Shown here: positions 150 through 45,788 of the stretch, in pieces
How the letters are laid out: each line of letters starts with the position of its first letter
Numbering within the stretch: the stretch's first letter is position 1
Assembly: GCF_030166655.1 (NCBI RefSeq)
Contig: NZ_CP126446.1
Span: 62,001-126,000 of the forward strand
Direction of reading: 5' to 3'
Length of the DNA stretch: 64,000 bases
DNA from: Pontibacillus chungwhensis
Lineage (GTDB): Bacteria; Bacillota; Bacilli; Bacillales; BH030062
Translations under genes and position numbers: made by a program
The notes under the pieces: generated by a model
Database searches by the model: none
The model's input: the letters and a program-made list of their open reading frames with translations, nothing else
What the model was told of the DNA's origin: nothing

Positions 150-170
150 AGGGGCTTGGCCCCTTTTTTG
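150..170 (+). terminator. Terminator of sspF
   Basis: A short GC stem (GGGGC/GCCCC with a 3-nt loop) is followed by six T. It lies directly after the sspF stop codon and fits a Rho-independent terminator. Confidence 0.85.
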
Positions 171-432: not shown

Positions 433-466
433 GCGTACGACACTAAACAGTCGCCTGCGCTTTTCG
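433..466 (+). repeat. Remnant (right end) of palindromic element
   Basis: The sequence GCGTACGACACT, then a short gap and CGCCTGCGCTTTTCG, is the same right end that closes the full copies at 552-585 and 850-883. The matching left arm is missing, so this looks like a truncated earlier copy. Confidence 0.7.
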
Positions 467-585
467 TAGTGTCTAGCTCCGGCTCCTAGCCCCTAGCGTC
501 ATAAGCAATCTAACTCCAGTGGCCTTCAGCCACTTCCGTTAGCTTGCTTATGCGTACGGGGCTGAACAGTCGCCTGCGCTTTTCG
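467..585 (+). repeat. Palindromic element, copy 1
   Basis: This is a long hairpin. The outer stem is AGCCCC (488-493) with GGGGCT (558-563); the middle is ATAAGCA with TGCTTAT; the apex is AGTGGC/GCCACT. The left side carries the conserved box TAGCTCCGGCTCC, and the right end is CGCCTGCGCTTTTCG (571-585). Outer and apical stems differ from the other copies but stay complementary. No protein is encoded. Confidence 0.8.
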
Positions 586-748
586 TTTATGTCCAGCTCC
601 GGTGGGTAGAGGCTAGCGAGATAAGCAAACTACCTGCAGTGGCTAATCGCCACTTCCGGCAGTTTGCTTATCCGGCCCCACACGATGTGGGGTCGTTCGG
701 CGTTGTCACAGGAGGTGACGTTCTTAGTCGAACTTCCGCTCTCTAACC
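586..748 (+). repeat. Palindromic element, copy 2 (altered right end)
   Basis: The core hairpin has ATAAGCAAACT paired with AGTTTGCTTAT and apex AGTGGC/GCCACT. The outer stem is GTGGG (602-606) with CCCAC (677-681), different in sequence from copy 1 but again complementary. The usual right end is replaced by about 65 nt of unrelated sequence beginning with a small CCCCAC/GTGGGG hairpin; the conserved right-end box reappears only at 749-763. Confidence 0.7.
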
Positions 749-883
749 CGCCTGCGCTTTTCGTAGTGTCTAGCTCCGGCTCCTAGTGTCTAGCGTCATA
801 AGCCAGCTCCTCTCCAAAGGCTATCGCCTTTTCCGAAGATCTGGCTTATGCGTACGACACTGAACAGTCGCCTGCGCTTTTCG
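749..883 (+). repeat. Palindromic element, copy 3
   Basis: The outer stem is AGTGTC (785-790) with GACACT (856-861); the middle is ATAAGCCAG with CTGGCTTAT; the apex is AAAGGC/GCCTTT. Both flanks carry the conserved CGCCTGCGCTTTTCG box (749-763 and 869-883). The copy ends just upstream of the ispE -10 element, so it forms the upstream edge of that promoter. Confidence 0.8.
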
Positions 884-39748: not shown

Positions 39749-39768
39749 TAACTAAAGTGAAAATGGTT

Positions 39769-39800
39769 ATGTCATAATTCTTATCTAGTTTTGAAGGTAC
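39769..39800 (+). other. 3' arm of the 23S precursor stem, first operon
   Basis: ATGTCATAATTCTTATCTAG and the following bases pair with the arm at 36743-36773, enclosing the first 23S gene. Confidence 0.8.
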
Positions 39801-39823
39801 TTAGAAAAAATCTAAAATACCTG

Positions 39824-39852
39824 TTGACTTTGTTGAATAAATAAAGTACAAT
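39824..39852 (+). promoter_or_regulatory. Internal sigma-A promoter before 5S rRNA and the tRNA cluster
   Basis: TTGACT (39824-39829) and TACAAT (39847-39852) are 17 nt apart and lie 34 nt before the first 5S gene. The second operon has no such sequence at the matching place. Confidence 0.75.
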
Positions 39853-39886
39853 ATATCTTGTCCTTGAAAAAAAGGAAGAGAAAAAG

Positions 39887-45651: not shown

Positions 45652-45658
45652 TAACAAA

Positions 45659-45788
45659 AGCGCAAGCGACCGCCTAGACCCGTACGGATAAGACAGATTT
45701 TCGAAAAAGGCTTTAGCCTTTGTAGAAAAGATGACTTATACGCTAGGGTCTGGGAGCTGGAGCTAGACGTAAAAACGTAAAAGGCACG
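45659..45788 (-). repeat. Palindromic element, copy 4, inside the second rRNA operon
   Basis: Read on the minus strand it has the box TAGCTCCAGCTCC, outer stem AGACCC/GGGTCT (plus-strand 45746-45751 and 45676-45681), middle ATAAG/CTTAT, apex AAAGGC/GCCTTT and right end GTCGCTTGCGCTTTT. This is the layout of the copies at 467-883. It lies between the 23S end and the 3' arm of the precursor stem. Confidence 0.85.

Follow-up and report, generated by a model that had tools for sequence, protein, structure and literature searches.

A covarying palindromic repeat family that enters DNA behind intrinsic terminators in Pontibacillus chungwhensis and related bacteria

The window analyzed here is a stretch of 64,000 nucleotides of the Pontibacillus chungwhensis genome (contig NZ_CP126446.1, positions 62,001 to 126,000). 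Near its left end, a small gene whose stop codon lies at 143-145 is followed by an intrinsic terminator, and an array of palindromic elements stands between this terminator-bearing gene and a gene at 936-1805, which we take to be ispE. One further copy lies in an rRNA spacer. The features are as follows.

151-169, plus strand: upstream intrinsic terminator, a GGGGC/GCCCC hairpin with T6 (read from the sequence)
434-465, plus strand: 5'-truncated leading copy, 3' end only, CGTACGACACTAAACAGTCGCCTGCGCTTTTC (read from the sequence)
474-582, plus strand: copy 1, with stem 2 AGCCCC at 488-493 and GGGGCT at 558-563 (118.4 bits)
594-761, plus strand: copy 2, split by Bacillaceae-1 (family model and Rfam match)
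601-606 and 747-752, plus strand: stem 1 of copy 2, GGTGGG/CCCGCC (read from the sequence)
608-611 and 741-744, plus strand: stem 2 of copy 2, AGAG/CTCT (read from the sequence)
677-743, minus strand: Rfam family Bacillaceae-1 (RF01690) inside copy 2 (59.3 bits, gathering score 35)
771-880, plus strand: copy 3, with stem 2 AGTGTC/GACACT (97.6 bits)
45657-45765, minus strand: copy 4, in a 23S-5S rRNA spacer (88.6 bits)

The first-pass annotation had described tandem copies with a remnant, and all of these were recovered at the coordinates given above. It had also read each copy as a long hairpin, which is borne out for copies 1, 3, and 4: their RNA z-scores were -6.25, -5.52, and -5.03, none of 200 shuffles was equally stable, and their outer stems fold as described. 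Copy 2 is likewise real (z-score -4.75), but the stem assigned to it, GTGGG/CCCAC, is wrong. Because CCCAC belongs to the Bacillaceae-1 match, this pairing is accidental, and GGTGGG/CCCGCC takes its place. Another repeat (AAAAGGTMAYAGAT; AAAAGGTCATAGAT / AAAAGGTAACAGAT) occupies the window from about 175 to 400, between the terminator and the array; its AAAAGGTCATAGAT / AAAAGGTAACAGAT sequence recurs at the same position in two genomes of the genus (G001 and G004) and also beside other P. chungwhensis arrays. Copy 4 has counterparts in five further 23S-5S rRNA spacers of the genome. Each of these six spacers holds a single copy, oriented antisense to the rRNA; five of the six copies are nearly identical, and none stands behind a terminator. 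The spacer of the second rRNA operon of the window (39752-39886) holds no copy.

The hairpin is imperfect, measures about 110-145 nt, and is laid out as YAGCTCC, stem 1, stem 2, a long arm, an apex, and the partner strands. In other genera, the full form reaches about 155-190 nt and comprises an AT-rich 5' leader of 45-65 nt ahead of YAGCTCC, the hairpin, and GCGCTTTT followed by C or G; in the window copies, only about 8-10 nt of leader remain. At least three leader types occur, each with its own 3' end: TTWAGGAAATTATAAAATTCTTGAACTGTGGATAAGCG..GACATC with GCGCTTTTGTTC, AAAGATAAGAAAGTATAAAAATTTG..TTTTAGTGTC with GCGCTTTTCTTA, and TCAGAAAGTTTAAT..GTTGTC with GCGCTTTTCGTTC. The hairpin alone has been lost in two P. 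chungwhensis copies (at 2837111 and beside 3232781). The first leader type often holds TGTGGATAA in several genera (e.g., L133, L150, L117, and L263), a DnaA-box-like motif that we take to be the complement of the DnaA box TTATCCACA.

The search of the genome and its relatives with a covariance model, which the first-pass annotation had proposed, revealed a far larger family. The P. chungwhensis genome gave 101 model matches, of which 19 were mirror hits on the opposite strand, leaving 82 copies; this count is a lower bound, with 150 of 711 first-look candidates scored. The copies form 50 arrays of one to five, including 6 in 23S-5S rRNA spacers and 13 nested in another repeat. Within the genus, seven of eight genomes had 21-121 matches, mirror hits included, and the model search returned no match in G002. 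Under stricter filters, 111 of 150 sampled genomes and 60 of 83 genera of the order carried the family, and none of 118 genomes from the rest of the phylum did. Carriers among the matches listed include Metabacillus, Cytobacillus, Litchfieldia, Neobacillus, Niallia, Rossellomorea, Sporosarcina, Domibacillus, Jeotgalibacillus, Salirhabdus, Pontibacillus, and Halobacillus, and the closest-looking named copies on that list are from Pontibacillus (L169, 116.3 bits). A pattern scan found at least 80 loci, among which are some chance matches to DNA of unrelated phyla; when these 80 were put through the model, 101 matches resulted. Plasmids and phages yielded no match for one leader-type copy used as the single query (E 1e-5). 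Much of the intergenic DNA that is still unannotated in Bacillaceae and related bacteria would be explained by this family.

One nested subfamily (112 nt, GCGTGG/CCACGC) lies within a Bacillaceae repeat (GCGAGACTCCTGCGGCAG..GAGCC / CTAGGGGAGACCCC), at a single joint. It was found at 13 P. chungwhensis loci (e.g., L060-L066, L071, L073, and L097) and seems to have multiplied together with its host repeat.

The element enters DNA just after the T-tract of an intrinsic terminator and in the same sense as that terminator. Of 133 arrays from other genera, 74 had a sense terminator within the 160 nt on their left in a hairpin-plus-T scan, compared with 11 of 665 shuffles; on the right, terminators were seen in 4 of 126 (plus strand) and 8 of 126 (minus strand). 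For this set, 10 overlapping matches of 201 were removed, together with 11 of 144 arrays whose left flank was too short or duplicated. The P. chungwhensis arrays, excluding the 6 in rRNA spacers and the 13 nested in another repeat, behaved similarly, with a sense terminator on the left of 15 of 31 (shuffles, 3 of 155); the two counts on the right were 0 and 1 of 31. Spacing provides a further line of evidence. A leader core was readable in 69 of the 133 arrays, 39 of which had an upstream hairpin terminator; the core started 5-14 nt behind the end of the T-tract in 35 of these 39, most often at 8 nt, and the 39 upstream hairpins were all different. The scan saw no terminator at 59 of the 133 arrays from other genera and at 16 of the 31 P. 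chungwhensis arrays, and a terminator-like hairpin on the minus strand was also present in 45 of 133 left flanks, as many hairpins can be read both ways. The window copies themselves lie about 265 nt behind their terminator and beyond another repeat, which counts against terminator homing.

Such a distribution could also arise passively, if copies spread at random or by recombination and selection spared those that landed after terminators. The DNA after terminators is a tolerant place, and the arrays plainly recombine, given that chimeric copies join halves of two subtypes (e.g., L012:1171-1279). However, the 5-14 nt spacing is tighter than tolerance alone needs, and in many arrays the intergenic DNA on the right is equally free. 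We therefore regard spread without active targeting as improbable.

Insertion can be followed at individual sites, for which the queries consisted of the two flanks fused directly to each other, with the element removed. For the L303 site of G031 (a Metabacillus bambusae record), no copy was present in 18 of the 19 sister genomes compared (G053 was not aligned); 15 of the 18 empty sisters join the flanks within 24-73 nt, and three hold other sequence. The flanks in G045 are 95-96% identical to those in G031, reading CCCAGCATTTTTC-ATTATTT without the element in G045 and CCCAGCATTTTTT-element-TTATTT with it in G031. A copy occupies the same place in G051; because G045, the nearest relative of G031, is empty, the insertions in G031 and G051 are most readily taken as separate events. 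The L304 site, which presumably lies behind ftsZ, reads CACTCTTTTTTT-ATGTG in G045 and CACTCTTTTTTT-element-ATGTG in G031. The L267 site is also empty in G045, but the alleles differ beyond the site too, and the G045 site corresponding to L301 could not be judged. Many flanks of P. chungwhensis arrays share a few letters after TTTT, such as GTTTAA on both sides of the window block; we claim no target duplication, because the empty/filled comparison at two sites (L303 and L304) showed none beyond T's. Pairs of empty and filled sister sites offer a clean system for finding the enzyme.

The ispE site itself differs between species. P. chungwhensis has a remnant and three copies, whereas G001 has a remnant and two copies (a GGCGGG type, then a GGCTCC type), G004 has remnants and both of the G001 types, but with their order reversed, G007 has a remnant and one copy, and G006 has a remnant only; no copy was found at this site in G002, G003, G005, or G008 (another genus). 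The site has therefore been used repeatedly, and the arrays turn over between species.

The first-pass annotation had claimed that paired positions change together, and this covariation proved to be far above chance in three alignments, larger samples among them. For the 26 best P. chungwhensis copies, 35 pairs were scored with 91.5% of cells paired. Two-sided changes occurred in 26 of the 35 pairs and amounted to 168 cells, compared with 49.4 in shuffles and with 6 cells changed on one side. The covariation score was 0.494 (0.132 in shuffles) and was reached by none of 500 shuffles, and the signal was gone when the partner columns were slid by 1-3. The corresponding scores were 0.563 against 0.168 for 98 distinct rows from other genera and, in three genomes that supplied 50 rows, 0.409 against 0.139. 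On a single measure, which counts further pair types, the observed value was reached by 30 of 500 shuffles for the 26 copies and by 46 of 500 for the 50 rows. Stem 1, stem 2, the arm, and the apex each vary blockwise, with G-C changing to C-G as readily as to A-T and with few G-T pairs. The covariation in the three alignments supports a maintained structure rather than decay, as had been proposed. Since there are copies in which the halves of two subtypes are joined, exchange between copies is part of its cause, and arm-templated correction of palindromes is a possible second source of paired changes. For the discovery of RNA motifs, this is a caution that a repeat can covary strongly without acting as an RNA; Bacillaceae-1 may be another such repeat.

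As to the nature of this structure, given at first as RNA or cruciform, the data lean toward DNA, and an RNA of the drawn strand is disfavored. Two-sided swaps with hardly any wobble intermediates do not point to such an RNA. The first, uncorrected count on the drawn strand was 273 A-C against 93 G-T cells; because many of the A-C cells stemmed from two loop-like pairs, pairs under 80% Watson-Crick were left out, and 31, 31, 31, and 32 of 35 pairs were kept in four alignments. Among the 7571 cells at these well-paired positions, 81 G-T cells stood against 143 A-C cells, and 136 pyrimidine-pyrimidine against 65 purine-purine cells (p = 4e-5, a nominal value only, since the copies are related). 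The A-C and C-T cells of the drawn strand are G-T and G-A on the complement, where they are better tolerated mismatches. As single-stranded DNA, the complement was more stable in 248 of 249 copies (77 of 77 from P. chungwhensis and 171 of 172 from other genera), with mean advantages of 3.8 and 5.6 kcal/mol, respectively. This preference is partly a matter of composition, given that the complement was still the better strand in 62 of 80 copies after shuffling, when the difference averaged 1.65 (sd 1.78). RNA parameters also favored the complement, in 68 of the 77 P. chungwhensis copies and 161 of the 172 others. The wobble-tolerant covariation expected of a transcribed-strand RNA was not seen on the drawn strand, and the complement would fit it weakly.

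A structured regulatory RNA or small RNA, with the copies transcribed and the fold acting as RNA, would nevertheless explain the strong covariation in all three alignments and the excess of A-C over G-T on the drawn strand, which becomes G-U on the complement. Gene arrangement lends this some support: when the gene on the right runs toward the element, its stop codon tends to lie close to the element 3' end, within 7 nt in 18 of 28 such arrays of other genera and within 6 nt for 11 of the 14 in P. chungwhensis, so that the complement is probably part of the 3' end of that mRNA. However, the wobble excess on the complement is no more than 143 to 81, copies come and go between sister species at one locus, and about half of the arrays lie between a terminator and a promoter, with the right-hand gene reading away in 62 of 124 arrays from other genera (9 of the 133, with a short right flank, being omitted) and in 14 of 31 from P. 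chungwhensis. We consider a role as structured RNA to be a minor possibility.

Taken as a whole, the feature is real and larger than first reported, and it is a mobile DNA repeat, not a proven RNA. It is probable, in our judgment, that the family represents short, non-autonomous, structured mobile DNA that homes to intrinsic terminators in one orientation. The target would be recognized as a hairpin plus a T-tract. Because the element itself ends in a hairpin plus TTTT, it may target itself, with new copies also entering behind old ones and building tandem arrays. The folded form that counts could be single-stranded DNA of the complementary strand, and the paired changes in the stems would come from the exchange of whole stems between copies or from one arm being copied from the other. 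A more specific version is offered tentatively, as something we would sooner doubt than assert: that the element targets a structure, the terminator, mimics it at its own 3' end, and so targets itself and builds ordered tandem arrays, traveling in the form of folded single-stranded DNA, through the action of an enzyme that has so far been connected with no repeat of this type, across most genera of the order.

Among the reverse transcriptases, group II maturases, and Y1 genes that we looked at, no mobilizing enzyme was found. One alternative is a SINE-like retroelement, whose RNA would be reverse-transcribed into terminators in trans, in a manner resembling group IIC introns. This would fit sense insertion behind terminators, and it would explain 5' truncation. 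The first copies of arrays are often 5'-cut and rarely 3'-cut: on the left, a 3' box without its 5' half precedes the first copy of 19 of 31 P. chungwhensis arrays and 24 of 133 others (shuffles, 0 of 155 and 4 of 665). The converse, a 5' box that follows the last copy on its right, was seen in 1 of 31 arrays (0 of 155 shuffles) and in 4 of 133 (3 of 665 shuffles). Nevertheless, RVT_1 was absent from 6 of 13 genomes searched, all six of them copy-bearing (P. chungwhensis itself, labeled G000, and G001, G003, G004, G005, and G033), and GIIM was absent from six of the eight genomes of the genus, with the richest included and with P. chungwhensis, G001, and G004 among the six, whereas the copy-free G002 has a group II maturase domain (GIIM). 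Moreover, an RNA starting inside the leader would lose the leader. A retroelement origin is accordingly hard to credit; group II introns and other reverse transcriptases were rejected as movers, as they are missing from copy-rich genomes.

A more serious candidate is a RAYT-like Y1 (HUH) transposase, which would make the family an unusual REP-type element. Hairpin DNA, fixed orientation, and the lack of target duplication are typical of such enzymes. Of the genomes searched, all 12 that bear copies also have Y1 genes other than the 139-aa IS200 kind, and G002, the only one free of copies, has none (G045 was counted as copy-bearing on leads only). The P. chungwhensis genome encodes three Y1 proteins, near 3569480, 3643118, and 3733718. 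Yet a single gene-less genome makes for a weak correlation, a model match lay near 1 of 20 Y1 loci, and in the 19 Y1 genes whose flanks were read, different short palindromes were often found there, which are probably the REPs of these genes. Because the Y1 loci are mostly without an element match and many have other palindromes, we hold mobilization by HUH chemistry to be rather unlikely. Independently of the present family, RAYT-like Y1 genes in Bacillaceae (L371-L390; G000-G005, G031-G034, and G045) often have short palindromes on their flanks (GTGCCTGACCCCCAC, GGGACTGTCCCC, GGTGCCTGTCACC, or TTCGACACCTTCGAA, for example), and RAYT/REP systems seem common here.

With regard to known families, the first-pass annotation suspected that the repeat may not be new and knew of no function. 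No Rfam 15 family other than Bacillaceae-1 matched the element at gathering score, either in the window or at 8 loci with leader-type copies, and Bacillaceae-1 did so only as an insert; in the open-access literature, we found no description of the family or of its terminator target. Bacillaceae-1 had been suggested as a comparison family, but it matches only 677-743 and does not extend over copies 1, 3, and 4. It shares the same genomes and is physically joined to the palindromic element in copy 2; in sequence and fold it differs, being an insert rather than a member of the palindromic family. Its reverse complement was proposed as a CsrA-binding RNA in one report (PMC4333381). The P. chungwhensis genome contains 23 Bacillaceae-1 copies, the one on the minus strand at 677-743 and 22 more. 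The 3' end of a palindromic element follows 11 of the 23, 5 of these with the hairpin to the left; 11 (12 by eye) lie in another repeat at a GCTTTCCGCGG joint, and 22 or 23 of the 23 lie inside other repeats. Bacillaceae-1 therefore looks like a mobile insert.

Among mobile systems, REP/REPIN sequences with their RAYTs and the palindromic derivatives of IS200/IS605 are DNA hairpins with oriented insertion, no duplication, and a trans-acting Y1 enzyme, traits that the present family may share; a RAYT-like gene accompanies it in the same genomes (12 of 12 copy-bearing; absent in G002). The palindromic element is larger, with a leader and a terminator target, and 19 of 20 Y1 loci are not flanked by it. 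Stem-loops targeted by group IIC introns are often terminators. These introns enter DNA behind a stem-loop in one orientation (PMC10190682). In target behavior alone, a stem-loop followed by the insertion point, the palindromic element does the same. Unlike those introns, which consist of a ribozyme and a reverse transcriptase, it is gene-less and abundant in genomes without RVT_1; the P. chungwhensis genome has neither GIIM nor RVT_1 as a sign of an intron-encoded reverse transcriptase. Transcription terminators can be the homing target of a gene-less element. The bcr1-bcr3 elements, MITE-like repeats of the Bacillus cereus group, are likewise short, structured, intergenic, and mobile, with tens of copies and no gene of their own; the accessible parts of their descriptions set them apart by their restriction to that group and their TTTAT motif and make no mention of terminator homing (PMC3446304; PMC6542083). 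Bhal-1 of Bacillus (Alkalihalobacillus) halodurans is also a stem-loop repeat, of 74 nt and in 36 copies (PMC2267715). Judged by their descriptions, these two, Bhal-1 and the bcr group, come closest to the present family among published repeats.
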